In this document: piece by piece, positions 31,882 through 62,013 of the stretch
Numbering within the stretch: position 1 is the stretch's first letter
Layout of the letters: every line of letters starts with the position of its first letter
From: Schizochytrium sp. TIO01
Taxonomy: Eukaryota; Sar; Bigyra; Thraustochytrida; Thraustochytriidae
Direction of reading: 5' to 3'
Assembly: GCA_004764695.1 (NCBI GenBank)
Contig: SMSO01000037.1
Span: 4,648,337 to 4,712,336, forward strand
DNA: 64,000 nucleotides
The notes under the pieces: model-generated
Databases searched by the model: none
What the model was told of the DNA's origin: nothing
Seen by the model: only the letters and a program-made list of their open reading frames with translations
Made by a program: the position numbers and the translations under genes

Positions 31882-31954
31882 GCTCGGATAGCTCAGTTGG
31901 TAGAGTGACAGTTTAGTAAGCTGTTGGTCCCGAGTTCAACTCTCGGTTCGAGCA
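31882..31954 (+). tRNA. tRNA-Thr (anticodon AGT)
   Basis: A complete 73-nt cloverleaf without intron. The acceptor stem GCTCGGA pairs with TTCGAGC plus discriminator A. The D arm is GCTC-AGTTGGTA-GAGT, giving one G-T pair. The anticodon stem is ACAGT/GCTGT with loop TTAGTAA, so the anticodon is AGT, read as IGT for Thr ACN codons. The variable loop is TGGTC, and the T arm CCGAG-TTCAACT-CTCGG is perfect and holds the B box. CCA is not encoded. A run of six T starts five bases downstream and serves as the RNA polymerase III terminator. Confidence 0.95.
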
Positions 31955-48700: not shown

Positions 48701-50645
48701 AAAGCGACTCGTGATTCTACTAAAAGGCTCCAGTTTCACTTTAAGTTCTGTTTTGGGATGGGATATTTCATTTTGAAAAAGTCAAGGTCTTAAAGACGGG
48801 TAGTCTCTGTTGACACGGTCCCATGGAGCCAGGACTGCATCATCACAGTTCTTGAAATAACTGAAATGCTGCATTTCACAATGCTGGTCAACGCTTTACA
48901 GACATGCCATCTTCTTACGCGTTCTTCTTTCGTCCCACTTCATCGAGGAGAAACCGTCGCCCGAAATCCCCTCATCTGTCTGTTCGGGGTTCCTCGCCTT
49001 CAAGTCTATCTATAGTCAAACATACTAATTCAAATAGACTTAACATCAGGTCAACGTGAATCAAAGAGTAATTAAAGGATGGCATTGCTGAAAGAGTTTG
49101 CTAGCTCATTAGATGCAACAGAACGCGCAAGCAAGAAGCCTTTGAAGAAGCGTTCATGATTACATTCTAGTAGGGATTATGTTTGGATACAGTGCCGCTC
49201 TGAGCCTTGTATCATACCTCTGCTTGGTAAGCCAAATGTCGATAGAAGACCAAAAGCTCTTGAATTGGTCCTTCTATGATGACTTAATGTGGGTACTTTA
49301 TCCCAAACGATGCTCTTCAATACTCGCCAACGTAGGTTTCCCGACTTGAATCATGGAGGCAGCAAAAGACCAAAGTCGAGTCATACAGATAGAAACATTC
49401 AAAGCAGCTATGAGCAGACACGGGTGTCTAGGTCCATCAAGAAAACCTTAGGAATCTATCTTCGATTCAAAGTTTTGCTCGAGGACTTCTGAAAAGAGAG
49501 ACTGTTCTTCAAATTAGCTGGAGCAGTCTCCATTATTTTATGATGCTGCAGCGTCACGTAGCAAAAATAATATTTTTAACTTTACTTTTTTATAAAATTA
49601 TAAACATGACATGATGATTACCAGCAATACTACCTAGGCCAAGTCTAGGGTAAAAGGAAGTAGCATGTTGAGGCTCGTTCGCGTGGCATCGTGATTGCCG
49701 GTACCTTCGTCGTCGAGGATAGCAAATACATCATGGTCCGCTCCCGCTCTTTGCGCAATGAGTCGACGCTTGAAGACTACGAAGAAATATGAAGGCTCAA
49801 GTGCTCGAGGAGAGGCTTCATTTCACTGATCCCGCGCGTTTGTGCTAAACCTGCTGGAGTGAGGTGCATGATTTAATGACCACTACCTAGTGCCTGTCTA
49901 GCGTTTAAATTAAGTGTCTTAGTTATATTTATTTAAAAAAAGTTTTAAAAAAAAAAGTACAACTCAAGTTCTATGAACACAGAATACTTATACAGTCCGG
50001 GATGCTTAATTTAAAGCGATGATGTTCTATCAGCTCTTTAAAAGCAGCGACATCCATTGACAAGCCGAGTCTAGCCCAGCTAGTACTACCCGAAAGCTGA
50101 CCTGGAGTCTTTTGGCCCATAGGTTTAGACGAAAAGTCCTCGATTTTCGTTCGATCTTTCTTTATCTCGATCTGGGTTTGGTTTTTGTTACTTCCAGTAG
50201 GGTGGCCTTTCTACTTTAACCGTATATTGGACTAACTAGACTATAAATAGGCCTCGATGCTACCTATCTCCCTTGAGCTAAAAACATACAAATGTATATG
50301 TTTAGAATAGAACTATTGGTAGGCCTACAATGATAAATGTTTTAAAACCCTAAAAACACATTTAAAAACAAACTTCTAATAGAAAACACTACATCAGGAA
50401 TACTTTTTTAAAATATACAGTTTCTTTTTTATATGTGATAAGAAGAGATGAAGAACTCGAGTTCAAAACTTGAAGTTCTGTGCAGCAAATCCCAATCAGC
50501 GCGGCCTGTATTCTTGAACTTCTGCAGGCATCACAGCATCAGCACCGGTTAAAGTAGGATATGCGACACGAGCGAAGGTGGAGATCCGCCCTGGCACCGC
50601 AAGACTAAGAAGATCGAGGTTTGTTTCGTGGGTTGAGAAGGGAAG
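45721..50645. other. Gene-poor stretch with coding relics
   Basis: No intact gene. Apart from the relic listed at 48109-48680, a short protein-like plus-strand frame without ATG lies at about 49663-49791, ending in EDYEEI before a stop. The first TAGGGTGGC motif of the array (50198-50206) lies here, and a T/A palindrome at about 49930-49957. Confidence 0.5.
48109..48680 (-). pseudogene. Decayed coding relic, family unknown
   Basis: A minus-strand frame from 48615 down to a TAA-type end at 48109 reads like a real protein over about 169 codons but is broken by an in-frame TAG at 48433-48435. Upstream of the stop it is Lys/Ala/Glu-rich and helical (AIKKDTHAIKKEKMAIEAHD region). Downstream it continues with KAKIIELWPNHVPREG and a NGKEYIYAWIKSAGN segment. 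Above 48615 the protein-like reading passes to another frame (about 48588-48680, GFDSDINVNRNEVEV), which suggests a second lesion. There is no ATG start and no recognised domain. It could be a dead host gene, a transposon-derived protein, or exons of a spliced gene. Confidence 0.4.
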
Positions 50646-50906
50646 ATGCTGGGAGGCAAAACTCTTCTCCGGCGCCTTAGCGGAGGCAAGCGTAGCAAGA
50701 AGAACTCTGCGGAGCAGCCTTTGAAGAGCACACCAGAGGTCGAAGCAAGACTTGCTAAAATGCAGCCAGTCGCCTCCAACCTGGCGTACGTACCGGTATC
50801 AGCGCGTATCACACCTGAAGGCCAACAGCCTGCTCGTCGTTCGCAGCCCTTGTGGATGGGAGCACTCGCCCCAGGAAGCTGCTTCGCTGGAGGGCCGGCT
50901 CTGTAA
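50646..50906 (+). CDS. Array protein 1: small basic protein with C-terminal GGPAL tail
   Basis: An 86-residue protein, the first of four related genes on this strand. The N-terminus is basic and amphipathic (MLGGKTLLRRLSGGK), matching the starts of the other three, which supports this ATG. The middle is basic and Ser/Pro-rich with no membrane segment. The C-terminus PLWMGALAPGSCFAGGPAL ends exactly at the stop and is nearly the same as in array protein 2 (Trp, Met, Ala, APG, Cys-Phe-Ala-Gly-Gly-Pro-Ala). A second shared patch is N-L-A-Y-V-P (45-50), against N-V-Q-Y-L-P in protein 2. The family is not recognised. The exact terminal position of the motif suggests a sorting or docking signal, which is inference. 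Confidence 0.75.
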   Translation: MLGGKTLLRRLSGGKRSKKNSAEQPLKSTPEVEARLAKMQPVASNLAYVPVSARITPEGQQPARRSQPLWMGALAPGSCFAGGPAL

Positions 50907-52311
50907 ATATAAGTTACCTATAATCACATGCCCTAAGGCAATTGGCTCAGCACGAGAAGCAAGCGATACAAGCTCGTACAATATGCTTTAGTGGCAGGCA
51001 TTCTTCATGCGAAATGGCTCAAGTTTAATCTACTTTGTTGTTGTTTATCTACTTCGCACTGTTTCCATTAGACCAGTTGTGCTAAATTTCGCAGAATAGA
51101 AACCTTGTGTTTCTACTTCATTCCTGTACATCTCCTTTAAATCACTATATCTATTTTCCATCTGAATTACTTCCAAAGCCTATTAATTTTACAACTACAG
51201 TAAGGTTTTCCACCTCCCTTTGTTAAATAGTGAAATCTTGCATGGATGCGCAGCTGATAAGAATTGTCCAAATGCAAAGTTATGGGCCTTGCTCATTTCT
51301 GCGTGAATGTTCATTATCTTCAGTACAATTATAAATCGTCTGAAGAGCGTTGGGCTCGTAAACTCGAAAATCGCATAATCGGTAACTTATAAAATCTTAA
51401 GTTACATAATGCACAAACCTTCCACAGATGAGTAACCTGCTACTACTGGTTCGGCTGGTCCTGCTCGGCGCCAATTTCAACGGCAGCCATGGGCACGCGA
51501 TGTCCCACCAGCTCGAGCTGTCTCCTATACCGAAAGGAACTAAACCAAAATGCTGCATATGTTATTTTTCACAACAGTATATAATTTGGCACACAAGGTC
51601 ATTTCATTGTGAAGACCCTGCGCCTTCGAAACTCTCCAAATTTGTCGCAGCAACGGCATCAGAACTTCAACAAGCCCCGAGGAGTAGTAGATAATCCTGT
51701 GGACACCTCATAAGAAACTACCTACGAGAAGCCAACTAACAACTTCTCAACTCCTCAACTCGATAAACTAAACAACAAATACACATATCTACAGTACAGT
51801 AGTCACTATTCTACTTCTATCAGAGACTTGAAGAAGGTAGAAGGTAGTTTAGCTGCCTTTTTACATCGTTGCATCCTCTCTACCAAAAGCTGACTAAGAG
51901 TTCACTAAACCCTATTACGCCGCGTGGCCACCCTAGAAAATAAAAAACATTTAAACTATTTATTATCACATTAACGAGACAAACAAAAGAGAAGTTCAGG
52001 CCCGCTCGGAGCGGCTCCAGGCAAGCTCGCGCTCGTGATGATGGAGGCCTTCTTCACATCACAAGCTGTAGAAGGTAAGCAAGTACCTGGCGACCGCCGT
52101 GGTCGTATGCCCCCCTCTCCACAGCTGATGACCTTTCCATCAAAACTGATCAAAGCGAGCGAGAACTTTGAAGGCTGCTGCTTTGGTGAGTCATTCTTCT
52201 TCTTATTATTATTATCTCGAGCAGAGCAGAGCAAGCGCGCCCGCTATAGTAAACGATAGCCGGGGCTAGCGGCGGCCACCCTACGGAGACGGAAGAAGAG
52301 TTCGGAGCGTG

Positions 52312-52380
52312 GGTCTGTCTGTCTGTGTGTCTGTCTGTTTGACTGTCTGTCTGTCTGTTTGACTGTCTATCTTTCTTTCT
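52312..52380. repeat. (GTCT)n degenerate microsatellite
   Basis: GTCT units with GTTTGACT interruptions. A separate perfect (TTTG)n run follows at about 52590-52625. Confidence 0.85.
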
Positions 52381-52995
52381 ATTGCAAGATTGCTGTCACT
52401 CACTCAGCCCATCGCCTCCGCTATCGTGCATCGCTGATGCTTGCTTGCTTGCGTGCGTGCGTGTGTGAAAATCTCCTCGAGGCCGCCGAGATCTCCGTCT
52501 GCCGCTGTCCGCCTGGCGGCGCCTGTTCGCATTCGAGCAGCCGAGCAGCTGATTAACGCAACCTGTGTAAATGTCTCTATCCCTTTCTATCAGTGTGTTT
52601 GTTTGTTTGTTTGTTTGTTTGTTTGTCTCTCTATAGCTAGATTTAATTGTGAAAAGCGATCGATCTTGAAGCCACCGACTGAGGAGACAAGCGTCTGTCT
52701 GTTGCAGGGTGAAGGCTGAGCCTGCTTGGAGAGCGGCGATGATGCATGACCAGCTCTTCACCGAGGACGGTCTTGGAGTTCAAGTCGATCCTGAAGAGCT
52801 CAAGAGCGAGCGATCTCTCTCGTGCGCAAGAATTCGAATTCCCAGCAGCTGTCTAACCGACCTTCCTTTCAAGTTGAAGGCCTTACTTCTAACAGACTCT
52901 TCAAACGAACTGCCTACCTACTATTATCCGAAAGCAAAAACCTTTTTTTGAGATTATCTTTTTTAATTTAAAAAACAACAACATTAAGTACCTCT

Positions 52996-53022
52996 TAATA
53001 ATAATAATAATAATAATAATAA
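52996..53022. repeat. (AAT)n trinucleotide repeat
   Basis: About nine AAT units, followed by a duplicated AAATTATA element. Confidence 0.85.
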
Positions 53023-54582
53023 ATTATAAATTATAACTTGGCTGCTAGAATTTGGAAGCCCCTCGTAGGGTGGCGCCCTCGACTTACGAAAGGGTGGCTC
53101 GGAGTTCAGCTCGTTTTCATAGGGTGGCGCCTTCTGAGGCGCAAAAACTTTTTGATGCAGCAGAAAGTACTATGGTTTGCTATGGAAACGCTAAGGGGGA
53201 AAAATGGTCTGCTGCCAAGTTTGCGCTGAATTGTCAAAGGTGACTGAATCAGTGAGCGTGAGAAGAACTGTTTATGATTTTCTTTTTAAAGTACTTGCTT
53301 TTTTCTTTTTAAAATTAACTAAGAAGAGCATCCTCGCTTGTTGTGTGCATGACAGCTAGCTGGCCTCGAAAAGAAGACCACAAGAAGAAGAAGGGGTGCA
53401 GATCACGCGCTCGGACACCGCTTTGGTGCAGCTGCCGGAGGGCGTCCTGAAAATCCTACAGCAGCCTACGGCTTTGCGGCTTCTTTAGTGCATCAACCGC
53501 TAAAGTACCACGGGAATTTGTGAGCGAGTTCGGAACTCGTGAGTTGAGTGCGTTATCATGTTTTTTTTTTTTTTTTTTCTAAACCTAAATGTGCTTCCTT
53601 TTCCTCTAAACAACTAAAAACAGATCATACAATCATCAAATAGAGTTTCCTTCGCTTTTGGAGGAAAGAGCTTTGGTTTTGGTAGCTTAGCGTAGGGTGA
53701 TCGCCTTTTCGAAGTGAAGGCGCGACGAACTCAGGTTATGGAAAGTCTGTTGAGGGCGTGGGAAGCGCAGAGGAACGCGAGCGAGACAGCGTACTTACTA
53801 CGGCGCAGTAGTCGGCTGTCCGCTCGAAGCCGCAGCCTCAATCTGCTGATCTGCTGATCTGCTGATCTGCTGTACCAGCTGTGCCGCCGCTTTCAAGCCC
53901 CAAAGCTGTCTTCTCGTGTAGTGAACGAATGGGCGCCATCTTCAAAGAATGAAAAAGTGGACTCTGTGGTTGTGAGCTGGAGCTTATCAGCTCATTAGCG
54001 TAGCTTCGCATAGCTTGGGATTAGGGGGATTTTGGTTTGATTGATTTATGGCAGTTGCGTGCATGAAAATCAATCGATCAATCAATCAATCATTCAATCA
54101 AAGAACAGCCTGCTCACTGCGACTTCGCGAGCACGGGTAGACGAGAGAGAGAGTTCCGAGTTGGTTTTTGGACATTGGCATTCGTCACCAAATTATTAGT
54201 TTTCTGATTTACTGCTGAGATAGTTATCTAGCCTAGGTAATAACTATATGTACCTATGAGGATTGTTACTTTTGTAAAAAGCGTTGAGGTGTAGACCGCG
54301 ATCGCTGAGCCTGTAGCATAGGTTTGCTTATGCTAAATACTAGGAATGAAGGTCGCTAGCTAGGACTCTTTGACTTGAAGTGGGCATGATTTGGAGGACT
54401 TTTGAGGAGGCAGCAAACCAGAAACTAATCAACAGCAAATCCCAAACGACCATCAAGTGTGCCCAGTCACTGCACAGACGACGAGCAGGCTTTCCGTGAG
54501 CACAACGGCTGACACGTATCAGGACAAGAGAGCAGCAGCAGCAGCAGCAACCAGCAACACATACAGACACCTGTATCCAAAG

Positions 54583-54888
54583 ATGATGATGGGCAAGTCG
54601 ATCCGCCTTGGAGGCAAGAAGAAGTCTGCCAACAAGGACGAATGCAAGAAGGACGAGATCCGCACTGCCTCGAGCTTCAACTTTGAGCGGCCGGCATCCC
54701 GCCGTGCCTCCACCACAACTCTCCCTCGTGTTGAGATGGCTTCTGCGAACGTTCAGTATCTCCCCATGGCCGCCAAGTCCCAAGTCTCCCCGGTTGGTGT
54801 CAAGGCCCCTGTTCGCCGCAGCAGCCAATCCATCTGGATGACTGCGTTTGCTCCTGGCAACTGCTTTGCCGGAGGCCCCGCGATCTAA
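54583..54888 (+). CDS. Array protein 2: small basic protein with C-terminal GGPAI tail
   Basis: A 101-residue protein if the first of three consecutive ATGs (54583, 54586, 54589) is used. A frame open further upstream (from 54457) encodes a poly-Ala run from a CAG/GCA repeat and is probably 5' UTR. The start MMMGKSIRLGGKKK mirrors the basic start of the other array proteins. The middle is Lys-, Ser- and Arg-rich. The C-terminus SIWMTAFAPGNCFAGGPAI closely matches array protein 1, including RRSSQS/RRSQ just before the Trp. No signal peptide or membrane segment is seen. Proteins 1 and 2 form one sister pair. Confidence 0.8.
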   Translation: MMMGKSIRLGGKKKSANKDECKKDEIRTASSFNFERPASRRASTTTLPRVEMASANVQYLPMAAKSQVSPVGVKAPVRRSSQSIWMTAFAPGNCFAGGPAI

Positions 54889-57505
54889 TCTTCTCCTGTC
54901 TTTAAAGAAGAAGAAGAAGATGGTCAACCTTCTTTACACTGTATCGGCAGAAAACTTCAATCCCAAAGCTGGCTAGCGAGGTAGCTTGCTGAGCAATGGC
55001 AAGAGCAACGTTTTCAAATTGGCAATCGCACCCGGGTCGTCGTTGCCTATTCGCTCTGCTCTCAGCTGGTAAAGCTTACCCGCATAGGGCTTGAACTTTT
55101 ACTTGCCACACTGTCACTCCTTTCATTTATTCTTATTGTCTTTGCGCACGAGCGTGGCACCCGTCTAAGTCGCTTTGCGCAACGCCTCGCTCTCCTGCGC
55201 CCTTTGTTTATAAAAAGAACCAACCATTCGTAGATTTTCGTAGATTACTCCAGTAGATATTATTTCTCTTCTCACCATAATTGTTTCCTCCTCCCCTGTT
55301 TTGTTCTCTGGAAAACACTCACGTTGTGTTTCTAGTTGGCTCGAAAGCGCAGCCGAAGAGCCCAGCTTTTGATTGATTGAGACCCTCTTCCACGCACACC
55401 CATCCTGCCACCCTGACACCCTGACATGAGATTAATCTGAAGACCCACCCACCACAATCAGTCGCACTTGCTTCCTAACCGAGCGAACGGAGCCAAGGAA
55501 ACCCACGCTCTAATGCCGTCTCTGCTGTGCTCAGTACTCATGCCGCAACACGTCCATGGGCGCCTTCAAGTCCACGTTGAAGCCGTCAAGCCCATCAACT
55601 TGAACAAAAGCCCATGCAATTCGTTGACGAAGGCGGCGCTCCTGTAAAACGGCTGCTTCTCAGGCCAACCATCAGCGGCGGTAGCAAGCAAGCAAGCAAG
55701 CAAGCAAGCAATATCATAGATGTCCAAACACGAATGAATGACTCGCGGCCTCTTACGATACACGTCGATGGCAGCATTATTCCCCCGCTCACCGCTGTAG
55801 AGCTTCTGGTACATGGCCAGCAGCGTCTGCGTAGGGTGGCGGCGAAGCACTTACAAAAGGACCCCAAACTCGTCGAAAACTCGGCTTCCTTCCGCTCGAT
55901 GCTTCCCCGTAGCCTCTCAAAGAAAATCGAAAGCGAATTCAGCCGCGCCCCGCGACTCCAGCTCTCTCGCGCTCGAGAGCTTGCTTTAGAGCTCGAGAGC
56001 TTGAGCGCTTGAGCGCTTGAGGGATTGGGAGCTTGAGATATTGCCGTAGAGATTGAGCTTATAGACTGATAGAGCTCTGGCGCCAGAACGATGCGACTCC
56101 AGGGTGGCCTGGGAGCGACCTTTTGATTGGTGAGTTTACACACGTGATTTCTTTTTAGACTAATGTGGAGGCCGTGCTGGCGAAGACGAGAGCCACCCTA
56201 TCGAGAGGCTCGGATCGGTACTGCCCTCCTAGCCTTATCGTTAGCAGTATTCAGGTTCACTTTTGAATTGTGGTAGTTATTTCTCACTTTCGAACTATTC
56301 CTTTAAATTGAAAAAATAATTGAAAAAATAATTGAAGAAATAATTTAAAAAATAATTTAAAAAAAAACAATTTTAAAACTTTATGAATAGAAGATAAAAG
56401 TATAAAGGAGCAATAAGGGTGCTTTTGGAAAATGAGATCGGTAGTGGGAAATGTTGGGTTTGAAGTTATGAGCAGATCCTTGTGCAGGCAGGCTGTCGGA
56501 GGGTGGTGGGCACGAATGAATACTCATTGAAGGAGGGCGCACGGCCAGAAAAGTGGACTTAGCCCTCTAGACATAATTAAATTTTAAGCTGCCCTCAAGG
56601 GAGCTTTGAGAGCGCAACACTCGAATTCTCTTCGATCTCCAAACGTTCTCCTTATTCTGAAGTGGTGTAAGAAAGGCTATGATGCCGTAACTAACTCTTA
56701 GCCAAGCTAAAAGAGCGAAAAAGCGCGGCTCTGGAAGAAAAGGTTTGATGTTCCTTCGCGAACTGACTGACTGAGTTCCATAGTTTTGGATAGGTAGGTT
56801 CTACCATGGATTGGAAATACCTGAAATGAGATTAGTATGATGATTCCTGAAAACAGTTTTTACCAATCAAAACAAACTGAAGGCTGTTTGTTGTAAGCGG
56901 GTAGAAAGTTTTGGCGTCTGAACGCGGCGCGAGTTCCGAGCGGGAGTCGGCTTGACGCTCGAGAGTCGTGACTCGACCAGCGAGAACGACGCTGTGTGCG
57001 TTGCAGGACATAGAAAGCAGCGCCGAGAAGAGCTCTCGTTTTGCCTTTTACTCTTTCTCTTTCTTTCTGTTGTAGGACGACAAACGATGAAACATGTGAT
57101 ATTTTCTTCTTCTCCTCTTTCTTTTTCTGAAGGCTGGAAAAAACAAAAAACAAAAACTTCTTTTTAATTTAAAAAAGAAAAAGAGGGTGGTAAGAGTAGG
57201 TCGGTCTCTTAAGGCGCGACGCTAGTAGTGGAGAGTTGAGAATAGTTTTTAAAGTTGAAAAGAGATTGAAACGACTGAGGGGCAGAAAGCCGAGAGACTC
57301 GGGCAGCAAACCCGAAACGAAAGAGTGCTCTGAGAAATAAGGAAAGGAGCGCGCAACGTATGTGAGTGGGCAGCGAGTAGCACCACAGGTGGATTGGAGA
57401 AGAAGATATCAGCAGCGAGCGGTTGATCGAGCAAGAGACCCGCAGTCGTTGACAACCACAGCAAAAGCCGCAGTGACCAGTTGTTGTTGTAGAAAAGCAA
57501 GCACA
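54889..57505. other. Intergenic within the array
   Basis: Contains two exact TAGGGTGGC copies (55832 plus, 56192 minus), an (AAGC)n tract at about 55683-55710, a GAGCTTGA-type degenerate repeat at about 55970-56040 and an A/T-rich ATAATTGAAAAA array at about 56310-56370. A possible minus-strand exon at 55531-55641 is described in the findings. The last 100 bases before 57506 are probably the 5' UTR of array protein 3. Confidence 0.5.
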
Positions 57506-57850
57506 ATGGCACTCAAGAAGATGTTCCGTGGCCTGCGTGGCAGCAAGGAAGTCAAGCAGGTTGTACAGAAACGCCACGGACCGTGCCTGCCGACGATCCA
57601 GGAGGACGAGCCAGAGGTCATGACCATGAACAGTATTAACTTGAGCATTGCTCGCCTCTCGTCTACTGCGGCTCGCAGGGCGGCTCGAAGTGCCAAACAT
57701 GCAGCCAGGACGGCACACATCCAGAAGGAACCCGTCTTCTTCTCCATCCCTACCAAGAAGCTCGCGCAGCAAATCCAGCAAGAGCAAAGAAAGAAGGAGT
57801 CGTTTTGGGCATCTGCCTTTAACGGCGGCTTCGCTGGCCCTGCTATCTGA
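57506..57850 (+). CDS. Array protein 3: small basic protein with C-terminal FAGPAI tail
   Basis: A 114-residue protein. The ATG at 57506 has a strong context (GCACAATGGC) and gives MALKKMFRGLRG, aligning with MTLREMLRNL of array protein 4; the open frame upstream to 57362 is probably 5' UTR. Features in order: basic start; LPTIQEDEPE acidic patch (29-38); INLSIARLSSTAARRAARS helix (44-62), nearly repeated in protein 4; PVFFSIP (76-82); a Gln/Lys-rich helix; and the terminal SFWASAFNGGFAGPAI. It is predicted soluble and strongly basic. With protein 4 it makes the second sister pair. The W-x-x-A-F...F-x-G-P-A-I tail links it to proteins 1 and 2. Confidence 0.82.
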   Translation: MALKKMFRGLRGSKEVKQVVQKRHGPCLPTIQEDEPEVMTMNSINLSIARLSSTAARRAARSAKHAARTAHIQKEPVFFSIPTKKLAQQIQQEQRKKESFWASAFNGGFAGPAI

Positions 57851-59142
57851 GTCTCCCTCGCAGACTCCTGACTCGTTATAATTTTGTACATATTCATAAA
57901 CAACCCCTTTATTGCAACTCGTTGCGGATGTGCAGGCAATCTTTCGTTTTCACGCCTTTCGCATCCAAGACGAGTTTGCCTCTGCGGAGTGGTCCCTCTC
58001 GCCTGTTGCATTGCTGCACCAAGGTTGAACGATGGCCTGCTCTTGCTCAAATAGATATATACATATCCCTCAAGATTATGTCTCCAAGTAGTTTTCAAGA
58101 GCGCCGGCTTCTGATCAATGCTCAGGTTTGCTTTGCATGCGATCGATGCCATGTTCTCTTTGATACGCTTTATCTTGTGGCTTCCGTAGAAGGCCTCCGC
58201 TCGTTTGTGAGGCCCTGTAGCGTTTTTTTGTCTTTCAATCTCTTTTTCATACATAATATTTATAATCATGACGTTTACTCTCTCACATCTGTTTCTCCTA
58301 GACCCTTTACGCCTGTACTGCACATCCCATCTCCAATACACTGTCAAGACACCATGGATAGGGTGGCTGGCTTGCCATGAGATGGTATCCTCTTCCCCGG
58401 TTTTCTTCTTTTCATCGAGTTGCCCCCCACAGTGATACAGGCGACACCTAGGTGTAGCTCACCTGAAGATGGTCCGCAATCACCGTTAGTGCCACTCCGC
58501 GTCATCATTTCCTCCACTGGCTTCTCAGCCACCCTATTCGTTTAGGCCACCACATTTGTTCTTCAAGCGCACAGCTCGTCAATGCGTTCAATTCCCCCAG
58601 ACGCTGTCTCTAGAGTAGCTCTGAGTTACTCGGTATATTACATAGTACTTGAGTCAGTACCTACTACCTACTTACTGCCTACCCTAGCGACCATACTAGT
58701 AGTAGAAGCTTTCTTCTCTTGGTAATTTTATCAATTATGATGCAAAATGAAAAAGGTTTCTTTCTTTCCTCTCGCACAGTGCCAGAACAGACCTCCGTAG
58801 GGTGGCGCACTGCGCAGCTGGAGAGGAGCTCGCGCATGGCTGAACCCTCGATACGGGTGGTGGGCATCCCTCAGACTACTTCGATAAAACCCGCACCATC
58901 ACGCGCCCATCCAGTCTGGCGGCAGGCCTGGTGACTGACGATGGTGCGGATTGCATCCATCACCAAAGCTGGTTCGTTCTCATGACCTCTGGCGTCATAA
59001 CCCTGAGACACTCACTGCAGGAGCCAACGAAAGGAAGCCAACGCCGCCAGCTCGCAGAGAGAGAGAGAGCAGTGGGTAGGCACTAGTGGCGGGTGCAGAG
59101 GAGAGACACGCAGCGGTGGCAGGGGCAAGAGCAGGTACCATT
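57851..59142. other. Intergenic within the array
   Basis: Contains three exact TAGGGTGGC copies. The copies at 58359 (plus) and 58528 (minus) face each other 178 bp apart and each is followed inward by a hairpin-prone stretch. The copy at 58798 lies 345 bases before the start of array gene 4. No gene is seen. Confidence 0.55.
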
Positions 59143-59778
59143 ATGACACTCAGAGAGATGCTGCGCAATCTTCACGTGAGGAAGCACGAGGGCTCTGGAG
59201 AAAAGAAACCAGGCGGCCTTGCAGCCAATACAGCAGACGCACAAGCTGACCCTACTGCTGGGAAGGATGAAACTCAGGATAAGAAAACTTCTGATGGAAA
59301 GAGAGACCAAAAGCTAGAAAATAAATTGCAAGCTCTGTCCACCGGGGAACAAAAGCTGCGACAACATACACAAGCCACCCTGGAGGCATCTGCGCAACAG
59401 AAGAAACCAGTAGTAGTACAACAGAAGAAGCATGCTCACAAAAAAGCAGAGCGGCAATCAGGCACGAAAACAGCTAAGAAGGAAACGGCAAATCCTACAC
59501 AACAAGAACACCTCCCCGCAATCAGCGAGAAGAAAGCACAAATTATGAAAGTAAAAAGTGCCCAACTTGCCATCGCGCGACTCGACTCAACAGCAGCAAA
59601 GCAGGAGGTGCGCAAGAAGCGACGGCCAGTTGAGAAACCAGCGGATCCAGTAGTGTTTTCACTTCCAAAGTTCGATCCGAACGATCTGTCGCGGGTCCAC
59701 GAACCTCCTCGTCGCAAACGCTCACGATGGGCAGCTGCTTTCTCTGGAGAAGGAGGCGGATTTGGCCCTGCCATCTAA
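59143..59778 (+). CDS. Array protein 4: larger basic protein with C-terminal GFGPAI tail
   Basis: A 211-residue protein; the start at 59143 (MTLREMLRNL) aligns with array protein 3, while the frame upstream to 59086 is probably leader. Residues 17-125 are a Lys/Gln/Ala/Thr-rich, disordered insert absent from the other three. The conserved part resumes with LPAISEKKAQIM (124-135), SAQLAIARLDSTAA (139-152), PVVFSLP (169-175) and a basic RRKRSRW, ending in WAAAFSGEGGGFGPAI. Compared with protein 3, LP-x-I, I-A-R-L-x-S-T-A-A, PV-x-F-S-x-P and the W-A-x-A-F tail are shared. It is very Lys-rich, with no signal peptide or membrane span. The function is unknown. Confidence 0.8.
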   Translation: MTLREMLRNLHVRKHEGSGEKKPGGLAANTADAQADPTAGKDETQDKKTSDGKRDQKLENKLQALSTGEQKLRQHTQATLEASAQQKKPVVVQQKKHAHKKAERQSGTKTAKKETANPTQQEHLPAISEKKAQIMKVKSAQLAIARLDSTAAKQEVRKKRRPVEKPADPVVFSLPKFDPNDLSRVHEPPRRKRSRWAAAFSGEGGGFGPAI

Positions 59779-60239
59779 GTAAAATCTTTACTTTCCCTCT
59801 GAGGGCCTTGAAATGCTATGCCCTCCTTGCTGGATTGCCCCTTGTACATATATCCTTGTCTCTTTTTTTCGTAGCTCGTTTATAATGTAGTTTTGTTTTA
59901 TTATTATGGATCCTTCACCTCTTCTCTGATGTTCTTGTTCAAGTCTTTGTTACGGCAGCTTAGACAACTAGATGATAAATTATATTATAACTTCGCTCGA
60001 ATTGTCGCCAGCACTCATTCGCTTCCCAAGACCACTTGGCGTTTGGTTTTTCGCATTCTACTTGTAGTGGCACGAATCAATCATACTCAGATATAGAAAT
60101 GAGATGTTTGCGTATAATCAAGGTCACTCAAACTGCCCCTGATTCAGGCTTACTTTTGCCAGAACAACTGATTTGTAAGAAACCTAATGTGAAAGTAGCA
60201 AACCATACATCAACAGCGGTGATTCTCAATTTAGTTCTA
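59779..60239. other. Intergenic, convergent 3' regions
   Basis: Lies between array gene 4 (plus) and the DIX gene (minus). AT-rich, no gene is seen. Confidence 0.6.
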
Positions 60240-61055
60240 TTATAGTTTAAAGTCCTTGGCGGCACTTGACAGATCATTAGGTATGGACAAACTCGCCTTA
60301 GGCGGCGGGGCTGGGCCTCCATTCAACGTAGACGATAGTGGCCTTCGCATCGGCGATGTAGACTGGGGAGCTGTACTCATCATCGGCGTGGAAGAAGTGG
60401 GGATCATCGGTGGAGATGGCGACGGGGAAGGTGCTGTTGACGACGACCAATCTAGGTCCATACTGTGCAAGGCGTCTGCTGCTGAAGTTGAACTCACAGG
60501 AGAAGCCTTAGCGCCAGCTGCAGGTGGCTTTACAGGTACTGGAGCGGATATGTTGCTGGCTGCTGTGGAGGAGTTGAGTCCAAGGAGATCGCCGCTGTGG
60601 TGTTTGCTGCTCGCTGCCTGTCCAGGACTTACAACCCGAGTTGGAGGAGGCGTCGAGCTTGAAGAGTTCCCACCACCGCTGGGGGCACGACCACGGCGCG
60701 CATGCTGCTGCTGTTGTTGATGATGCTCCACAGGCCTGAATGATGAAGATGAAGGTCTTTGGGAATGGGCTGTCGCTACCCCGTGCAGCGATAACCGTGC
60801 AACCTTAGCGACGATTTGGTTGTCAAAACGTGGCACAAGAGCAGCGTCGTCGAGGAGGTCGAGCCAGACATAAGTGTTCTTGAAAGCTTTTTTAAAACGG
60901 AAATGGTAACCACCAGGCAGAGGGAAGGTAGTTTTGACATCGCCAAGACGAACCTTGTTCGCAGGCCGCCCAAGCGTGTAGAAGTTCGGGTGTGCTTCGT
61001 CATCTCCGTCCTCCGGCACAAAGTAATAAACGCTGGTCCGTGTGGAGGCGCTCAT
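60240..61055 (-). CDS. DIX-domain protein
   Basis: A 271-residue protein starting at the ATG at 61055 (MSASTRTSVYYF); the frame extends upstream only to a TTG. Residues about 5-85 form a DIX domain, a ubiquitin-like fold that polymerises head to tail in Dishevelled, Axin and plant SOSEKI proteins. Seen here are T-S-V-Y-Y-F-V-P (beta 1), the ANKVRLGDVKTTF stretch that aligns with the I-T-L-G-D-F-K core of Dishevelled, GGYHFRFKKAF, an acidic loop (DLLDDAALVPRFD) and a terminal beta strand VAKVARL. The remainder is a disordered tail rich in Ser, Pro, Gln and His, with GDLLGLN (a clathrin-box-like element) and SMDLDWS. No DEP, PDZ or RGS domain follows. It probably forms polymers that cluster partners at the membrane or cortex. 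Confidence 0.8.
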   Translation of the reverse strand: MSASTRTSVYYFVPEDGDDEAHPNFYTLGRPANKVRLGDVKTTFPLPGGYHFRFKKAFKNTYVWLDLLDDAALVPRFDNQIVAKVARLSLHGVATAHSQRPSSSSFRPVEHHQQQQQHARRGRAPSGGGNSSSSTPPPTRVVSPGQAASSKHHSGDLLGLNSSTAASNISAPVPVKPPAAGAKASPVSSTSAADALHSMDLDWSSSTAPSPSPSPPMIPTSSTPMMSTAPQSTSPMRRPLSSTLNGGPAPPPKASLSIPNDLSSAAKDFKL

Positions 61056-62013
61056 AATCCTAGGCAAAAGAAGAGCTCCAAAGAGCTCTAAGCCCCTTGA
61101 GTCCCGTTACAGTGGGAATTTCGGCGGAGAGGCAAGGATATCGATCGATGCGAAGCAGATCAGGCGCCTTCCAAAGTTCAAGTGTGGCAAGTCCACAACA
61201 GCGTGGCATGCACCGCAACTGCCTGCTGCCGCGACGAAGCAGCGAAGCGACCGAGCCCAATCGGTACGCCCAAACCTGCTCTATATTTTCTACGCTAGCG
61301 GGTTAGATTCTGTCTCCATGAAAACCCTAGAGACGACGGATATATATATATTCAAATCCTTCTCCACCTTCGTCTTCGCCATCATGCTCTCCAAGAGCAT
61401 CGACTTTTCACTAGGCAATGACTACCCCGTTCAACTAGGAACTACTAGTGTTCCTATTGTTTCAAACATTCCCAAAGTTACCAGAGTTCCGAAAATGCCC
61501 TTGTGTTCCAGGGGTTCAAAACCCCGGCGTTCCAGGAGTTCTTTACCAAAGGGGCAGACTGGGGGCGCAGCGCGCACGGAGGAGGAGGCAATGCATCGGA
61601 ATGGGGAAAGAAAACATTGTTTCTTTGTTGTTGCTGTTTCTAAGTGAGGAAAGATCATGAAGAAGAAATGATAATGCGATGTCATCGAAGGCGCACATCA
61701 GAACATAAAGACTCTCCAGCAGATCCTTTTCAAAGAGCGGACTTGAGGCGAAGACACAACGGAAGCAGGCCGTGGGCACAGAGGCTTGTGCGGGCAGATC
61801 CTGTTGCGAAGGAGGAGGCTCTGAAAAGAAGGCCTTGTCAAGTCAGGGTTCCGGGCTGGAGAAGGCTTTTGGAGTCTGGGAGGCTTTCGCGTGGAAGTGA
61901 TCTATCTCTAGCCGAGTGACGAACTAGGTAAGTACTTACGTACTGTCTACATAAGAAAGAAGAAGATCTTAGGTCGCAAAGCGAGCTCGTGGCTTGTTGG
62001 GTTTACGTGGAAA
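61056..62013. other. Divergent intergenic region
   Basis: Should contain the promoters of the DIX gene and the Nudix gene. A degenerate GTTCC-rich stretch at about 61446-61545 makes long open frames on both strands that I regard as noise. The first ATG of the Nudix gene follows an AAG-rich leader. Confidence 0.5.

Follow-up and report, generated by a model that had tools for sequence, protein, structure and literature searches.

Four small proteins with different bodies and one common ending raise the question of whether that ending is a signal recognized by a shared partner and whether anything else unites their genes. In the 64,000-nucleotide stretch of the Schizochytrium sp. TIO01 genome analyzed here (the window), the sequence-only reading had proposed four plus-strand genes for proteins of 86, 101, 114, and 211 amino acids (aa). 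The open reading frames (ORFs), their lengths, and their tails were all found as described:

50646 to 50906, plus strand: g1, 86-aa ORF with the tail LWMGALAPGSCFAGGPAL; sister of g2
54583 to 54888, plus strand: g2, 101-aa ORF with the tail IWMTAFAPGNCFAGGPAI; sister of g1
57506 to 57850, plus strand: g3, 114-aa ORF with the tail FWASAFNGGFAGPAI; sister of g4
59143 to 59778, plus strand: g4, 211-aa ORF with the tail RWAAAFSGEGGGFGPAI; sister of g3

The shared ending is W..A[FL]...GPA[IL], and in all four ORFs it runs exactly to the stop codon, as had been claimed. The g4 product also carries a long Lys/Gln-rich insert located C-terminal to its N-terminus.

The four ORFs are coding-like. By codon usage, the true frame came out on top of the six in every case, and total codon scores rank them 7th (g4), 14th (g2), 17th (g3), and 25th (g1) among the 237 ORFs of 80 to 250 aa in the DNA examined; the synonymous-codon score of g4 is neutral (0.002). 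Near-identical variants of g1 and g4 are found in other public data, each with the frame kept and a single amino acid change that falls outside the tail. An explanation through noncoding RNA was rejected: at the gathering threshold, Rfam produced one tRNA in the window (31882 to 31954) and nothing at the other loci scanned.

The proposed sister pairs were both recovered by searches of the genome itself, in which g1 and g2 match each other with E values of 2.9e-8 and 3.9e-8 and g3 and g4 with 5.5e-10 and 5.0e-9. Sequence identity within the pairs is 41 to 43%. Between the pairs, only the tail can be aligned (hhalign E value of 0.0064, probability of 5.9%), which agrees with the earlier claim that the tail was kept while the rest diverged. 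When the last 22 aa were removed, the alignment score of the bodies was equaled by 408 (g1-g3), 91 (g1-g4), 40 (g2-g3), and 251 (g2-g4) of 1,000 shuffles; for the last 22 aa, the respective numbers were 28, 111, 1, and 8, so that the g1-g4 comparison is unsupported even in the tail. Kinship between the pairs rests on some 20 residues.

The tail itself is well beyond chance. The pattern GGNCCNGCNNTNTRR (Gly-Pro-Ala-hydrophobic-stop) has four matches in the window, all of them the ends of g1 to g4, compared to an expected 0.27, and none of 100 shuffles reached four. The conserved part extends back about 14 to 17 residues, to a Trp. Among 27 tail codons compared between g1 and g2, 5 are identical, 13 are synonymous, and 9 are nonsynonymous, and the codons for the invariant Ala, Pro, Gly, and Arg residues vary at silent positions among all four genes. 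The differences between g1 and g2 are thus mostly silent, so selection acts on the peptide; in the other comparisons, silent differences (5 to 7) are fewer than residue-changing ones (11 to 17). The C-terminal peptide is under protein-level constraint, most clearly in g1 and g2.

Searches for relatives bore out the statement that no described family has this tail. No Pfam-A family was found for g1 to g3, and the best hit of g4, DUF6479, scored 10.1 bits against a cutoff of 25.4. A profile of the four sequences had no match among PDB sequences at E values of up to 10, and there were no homologues beyond the near-identical variants. IMG/VR, searched with g2 and g3, returned 3 and 19 pattern stretches, respectively; none was confirmed, and a viral or phage origin of these two genes was dismissed. 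In the organism's own genome, searches with the four whole proteins and three tails found the sister genes as the sole significant matches, although these searches were not very sensitive and distant members could be missed, since the 30-aa tail of g3 failed to retrieve g4. A weak match (E value of 0.09) shares SxNFxFERPASRRAST with g2; it lies in a tail-less 524-aa ORF and was set aside as a chance or motif-level similarity.

Two partial patterns for GPA[IL]-stop gave nine matches elsewhere in the 64-Mb genome, all without W..A[FL]. The strict one had 10 matches versus 5 for its reversed control; the six outside the array end frames of 10 to 45 aa and were rejected as tail genes. The second had 6 matches versus 12 for the control: two array genes, another that had been seen already, and three new ones (120 bases inspected for each). 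Since both patterns are gapless and miss some of the codon combinations that encode GPA[IL]-stop, they do not fully establish that further tail genes are absent. In the searches made, the family turned up in its own array and nowhere else in the genome, so a general sorting signal used across the genome is an unlikely reading; g1 to g4 appear to be a small tandem array of intronless-looking paralogs that, within the reach of these searches, is restricted to a single thraustochytrid-like lineage.

What such proteins might do can be narrowed somewhat. No transmembrane stretch was found in any of the four (the highest Kyte-Doolittle mean over 19 aa is 0.93, and none reaches 1.6), which argues against a tail-anchored or other membrane protein. 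The charge-hydropathy test classes only g3 and g4 as disordered; g1 and g2 come out as folded by a small margin. For the "short basic amphipathic N-terminus" attributed to all four, support is weak: in the first 11 aa, the hydrophobic moment is equaled by 279 and 320 of 5,000 shuffles for g3 and g4, respectively, but by 1,332 and 1,875 for g1 and g2.

PDZ ligands end in a hydrophobic residue and have Ser or Thr (class I) or a hydrophobic residue (class II) at position -2, whereas the peroxisomal signal PTS1 is a C-terminal tripeptide of the SKL type. Like both of these, the motif of g1 to g4 always sits at the free C-terminus and has been retained as the remaining sequence changed. Compared by sequence alone, its last residue (Ile or Leu) fits a PDZ ligand, but position -2 is Pro in all four proteins, with no class I Ser or Thr, and conservation reaches much further back, to the Trp. 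The tails end in PAI or PAL and not in an SKL-type tripeptide, and PTS1 was accordingly discarded. The ASAF-like letters in g3 and TAFAP in g2 recall the heterokont plastid ASAFAP motif; however, that motif sits at the N-terminal signal peptide cleavage site and these letters are C-terminal, and thraustochytrids are not known to have a plastid. Candidate proteins of the labyrinthulomycete ectoplasmic net and bothrosome are likewise lineage restricted, without deep homologues, and in some cases predicted to be disordered, all of which they have in common with g1 to g4 (PMC12221091). However, three enigmatic candidates described there have predicted transmembrane and extracellular parts, whereas g1 to g4 have no transmembrane stretch (PMC12221091). 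A docking, sorting, or anchoring role of the tail is compatible with these data and is our best guess for the protein part.

The strongest anomaly of the locus, we think, is one that the sequence-only reading did not mention, a cluster of the 9-mer TAGGGTGGC between the genes:

50198..50206, plus strand: TAGGGTGGC site, 448 bases upstream of the g1 ATG
51927..51935, minus strand: site in the g1-g2 spacer, the sole array site preceded by C and not by R
52275..52283, minus strand: site in the g1-g2 spacer
53066..53074, plus strand: site in the g1-g2 spacer
53120..53128, plus strand: site in the g1-g2 spacer, 1,463 bases upstream of the g2 ATG
55832..55840, plus strand: site in the g2-g3 spacer
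56192..56200, minus strand: site in the g2-g3 spacer, 1,314 bases upstream of the g3 ATG
58359..58367, plus strand: site in the g3-g4 spacer
58528..58536, minus strand: site in the g3-g4 spacer
58798..58806, plus strand: site in the g3-g4 spacer, 345 bases upstream of the g4 ATG

All 10 copies in the window lie within these 8.6 kb (50198 to 58806), with none in the other 55 kb; 0.17 were expected, and 0 of 100 shuffles reached 10. In 42 half-overlapping 9-kb segments of the DNA examined, other complex 9-mers have at most five spaced copies, whereas TAGGGTGGC reaches eight. The 9-mer by itself, with 167 copies in the genome versus 152 for the control, barely departs from the control level; an isolated site is therefore unlikely to be of much significance. 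The extended form RTAGGGTGGC occurs 99 times in 64.06 Mb versus 60 times for the reversed control, and its chains with gaps of up to 5 kb comprise nine sites (the g1-g4 array), five, and five, plus two chains of two. The longest chain in 5,000 uniform random placements, a test that takes no account of base composition or contig ends, was three. The site density of the array is thus matched at only two other loci found in the genome. These two (C13:3576932-3579065 and C13:3692016-3695537) adjoin a predicted gene for a membrane RING-finger protein and one for a membrane protein; their DNA was chosen for examination because of its sites, and its content is no independent support. A DIX-domain neighbor of the array, which lacks the tail and whose nearest site is in the g3-g4 spacer, was considered a bystander.

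The 20 clustered sites occupy both strands and have R at -1 in 19 cases, C at -2 in 12, T at -4 in 15, and never A at +9; beyond this, their flanks cannot be aligned. A short flank preference of this kind, present on both strands, is what binding sites, and not copied repeats, would be expected to show. Homotypic clusters of transcription factor binding sites are an enhancer-type concept, and what characterizes them, a single short site crowded into one region more often than chance would allow, is found here, as many exact copies with unalignable flanks in a few mostly noncoding stretches. The difference is that the 167 genome-wide copies are near the control level. Among the titles listed in searches for thraustochytrid cis-regulation and binding sites, none describes such an element, and a search with the letters of the 9-mer gave nothing on thraustochytrids among the matches listed.

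Could repeated DNA account for either feature? That the ORFs are not genes and the tails a DNA-level repeat might be suspected from their shortness and the lack of a database family, but it is highly improbable given the frame preference of all four ORFs, the frame retained in the public variants of g1 and g4, and the mainly silent g1/g2 tail differences; moreover, no common repeat covers the tails among the 20 of 38 direct-repeat families and 25 of 53 inverted pairs listed. The 9-mer could instead derive from a hAT-like DNA transposon or a MITE, as its terminal inverted repeats or what is left of them, since hAT elements have TAGGG-type ends and the sites occur in both orientations, facing pairs included. 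This origin is largely refuted and has the least chance of all: the 20 sites have no longer shared ends (the sequence in common stops within some 4 bases of the 9-mer in each direction), the conserved bases continue outside the point where the element would end (R at -1, C at -2), and the 13 facing pairs within 6 kb show no matching flanking duplications (one 3-bp match, none of 4 bp or more).

A more serious rival, possible though in our view doubtful, is ordinary duplication, with two tandem pairs of fast-evolving orphans whose tail persists for structural reasons, as the core of the protein, or because it stabilizes the protein as an anti-degron terminus, and not for docking, and a 9-mer that controls chromatin, replication, or the like. 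The tandem same-strand arrangement and the identity within pairs suit it, as do the lack of a known receptor for the tail and the placement of the other two clusters in large gaps without any of the 30 best-scoring of the 237 short ORFs. The nearest exact sites to g2 and g3 are 1.3 to 1.5 kb upstream, and the link between sites and genes is therefore positional only. Against this rival, the tail outlasts everything else between the pairs, which is unusual for a core, and the site is present in every array spacer as well as upstream of g1.

We favor, with moderate confidence, a lineage-restricted paralog array coregulated through a homotypic site cluster, in which the products are soluble, basic, low-complexity, adaptor-like proteins and the free C-terminus is the ligand. 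W..A[FL]...GPA[IL]-COOH would dock into one common receptor, the divergent bodies would set what each protein brings, and a putative sequence-specific DNA-binding factor reading (C)RTAGGGTGGC would switch on the four genes together. A bolder version, which we regard as rather unlikely, is a dedicated mini-regulon of a labyrinthulomycete-specific structure, in which the RTAGGGTGGC factor would control three loci, those of the four tail proteins, of a RING-H2 ubiquitin ligase in the membrane, and of the membrane protein, and the tail would have a lineage-specific receptor; if true, this would add a previously undescribed code for C-terminal docking, marked by a cis-regulatory signature of its own. 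Should the favored reading be right, the undescribed C-terminal peptide could be used as bait for the receptor. The array would then offer a test case in an apparently biotechnologically used protist, with a sharply defined cis-element that forms three strong clusters in 64 Mb.

The four plus-strand ORFs of the array and their common tail, W..A[FL]...GPA[IL] ending at the stop, were found again on re-reading the window sequence, just as the sequence-only reading had described them:

50646-50906, plus: g1, 86 aa
54583-54888, plus: g2, 101 aa
57506-57850, plus: g3, 114 aa
59143-59778, plus: g4, 211 aa

The four-gene array with a common tail is a real observation. The window contains four instances of Gly-Pro-Ala-hydrophobic-stop (0.27 expected), each at the end of one of these genes. 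In codon usage the genes resemble 38 long ORFs, a training set selected on length only and therefore possibly including some that are not genes; each array gene scores best in its own frame, and they rank 7, 14, 17, and 25 by total coding score among 237 short ORFs. The synonymous-only codon score of g4 is neutral. The array ORFs are coding-like. No membrane stretch was found in g1 to g4, and basic residues directly precede the tail, with Ser nearby.

The proposed division into two sister pairs holds, with 43% identity between g1 and g2 and 41% between g3 and g4. Between the pairs, profile comparison aligns 27 C-terminal columns and nothing else (E = 0.0064, probability 5.9%), in agreement with cross-pair shuffling tests, which were unconvincing for the bodies in all four cases and supported the tails in three of four. 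Over the 27 aligned tail codons of g1 and g2, there are 13 silent differences, 9 residue-changing ones, and 5 identical codons, so that here the peptide, not the DNA, is conserved; in the other five pairings, silent differences (5 to 7) are fewer than residue-changing ones (11 to 17). The tail is under peptide-level constraint, most clearly in g1/g2. Searches of the public protein collection with g2, g3, and the four-protein alignment returned the array genes themselves and near-identical variants, and nothing further. Relative to g1, entry P0004 has a change at residue 28; relative to an upstream-extended g4 frame, P0003 has one changed residue. The tail is unchanged in both. There was no Pfam family above the cut-off and no PDB match for g1 to g4, and no viral relative was found for g2 or g3, the two genes searched. 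The array represents a new orphan family.

The source assembly is eukaryotic and comprises 64.06 Mb in 37 contigs, with the window at C36:4648337-4712336; GC content is 46.9% in the window and 46% in a larger DNA set from the same genome, somewhat below the 49.99% published for S. limacinum SR21 (PMC7179369). On another contig, a single 2172-aa open frame carries ten ACP domains (PF00550) in a row (C4:611495-614707), which is typical of thraustochytrid PUFA synthases; the frame resembles a subunit of such an enzyme and fits a probable thraustochytrid source of the Aurantiochytrium/Schizochytrium limacinum type.

Own-genome searches with the four whole proteins and, for g1, g2, and g3, with their 30-aa tails gave the sister genes as the sole significant matches, plus three insignificant places (E = 0.09, 1.29, and 2.06). 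Since the g3 tail alone failed to retrieve g4, divergent tail members may have been missed. A 524-aa ORF that matches no Pfam family has SxNFxFERPASRRAST in common with g2 (C30:5279575-5279649, positions 1501-1575 of stretch L003; E = 0.09), possibly a shared phosphorylation or docking motif. The strict GPA[IL]-stop DNA pattern matched 10 places genome-wide (5 for the reversed control), four of them the array genes and six in frames of 10 to 45 aa lacking W..A[FL]. A second, partial pattern gave 6 matches (12 for its control): two array genes, one of those six frames, and three new places, again without W..A[FL]. Judged against their controls, both counts indicate that GPA[IL]-stop alone is not enriched beyond the array. 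As far as these searches reach, the tail does not appear to be a general sorting signal.

The spacers of the array hold a second shared feature, the 9-mer GCCACCCTA/TAGGGTGGC, which k-mer comparison found in 10 copies in window 50001-60000 and in none in the rest of the window (0.17 expected in the whole window). Sites of this kind group as follows:

Window 50198, 51927, 52275, 53066, 53120, 55832, 56192, 58359, 58528, 58798 (6 plus, 4 minus): 9-mer sites of the array
C13:3576932-3579065: second site cluster, in a gap of 3.9 kb flanked by long open frames
C13:3692016-3695537: third site cluster, in a gap of 6.2 kb flanked by a minus-strand ORF pair and an ORF judged by eye to be ribosomal-protein-like
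C34:1049712-1051222 (L038 6712-8222): facing GTAGGGTGGC site pair, at 1049712 and 1051213, 1.5 kb apart
C36 4518908 and 4523138: two-site chain

None of the array sites lies inside g1 to g4. One or more sites lie upstream of each gene: for g2, g3, and g4 in the spacer that separates the gene from the preceding array gene, and for g1 at 448 bases from the start. A 132-aa ORF in the g2-g3 spacer (55614-56012, plus), mildly coding-like (score 6.9) and with neither Pfam match nor tail, overlaps one TAGGGTGGC site. In a control scan of 42 half-overlapping 9-kb segments of the DNA retrieved from this genome, covering the best three complex 9-mers of each, the highest other count was 5, versus 8 for the array 9-mer. 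No description of such a cis-element cluster was found in the literature searched at title level; that of the array is unusually clear.

Genome-wide, the bare 9-mer is hardly over-represented (167 places versus 152 for the reversed control; positions are from the first 100 of the 167), and RTAGGGTGGC is moderately so (99 versus 60, all located). With gaps of up to 5 kb, the latter forms chains of 9 (array), 5 (C13:3576932-3579065), 5 (C13:3692016-3695537), and two of 2, and 5000 uniform random placements never gave a chain longer than 3. What is exceptional about these sites is their clustering, not their genome-wide abundance. Exact TAGGGTGGC is common to all 20 clustered sites, which were picked by having it, 10 of them from two loci chosen because of their sites. 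Their flanks show R at -1 in 19/20, C at -2 in 12/20, T at -4 in 15/20, and A at +9 in 0/20, and are unalignable beyond those positions. Copies of a repeat would be the alternative origin; the short flank preference together with unalignable flanks speaks for a candidate protein-binding site kept individually. Target-site duplications of at least 4 bases were found in none of 13 facing site pairs within 6 kb (one 3-bp match).

The two TAGGGTGGC clusters on C13 (L030 to L033) lie about 115 kb apart. The second is located upstream of an ORF on the plus strand that encodes a RING-H2 finger (zf-RING_2, E = 5e-14) and six candidate transmembrane stretches; a long (CTCAA)n tandem repeat also occurs within this cluster (L031 224-348, C13:3578224-3578348). 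The minus-strand pair beside the third has candidate transmembrane stretches and no Pfam family above the cut-off. Of the 237 short ORFs scored (at least 80 aa), the best 30 include none that falls wholly within either gap, and among the frames listed for both 20-kb C13 stretches none ends in the loose tail form G-[PAS]-[AGS]-hydrophobic. The spacer that holds the C34 pair is upstream of an ORF with ankyrin repeats (Ank_2, E = 6.6e-54) and weak SAM matches below the cut-off. Adjoining the array, a minus-strand ORF (60243-61067) encodes a DIX domain (PF00778, E = 4.6e-12); in a 2025 study of SAR-supergroup DIX proteins (PMC12077222), none of five thraustochytrid words looked for occurs in the main text.

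In the working that we propose, one factor would bind the clustered sites and co-activate the array, whose basic proteins, soluble in keeping with their lack of a membrane stretch, would dock through the free C-terminus on one receptor. Docking is a plausible reading of the tail; that the preceding basic residues and nearby Ser form a phosphorylation or basic-patch module is a guess. In view of its lineage restriction (PMC12221091), the array may be linked to the ectoplasmic net or the zoospore, which is only a lead.
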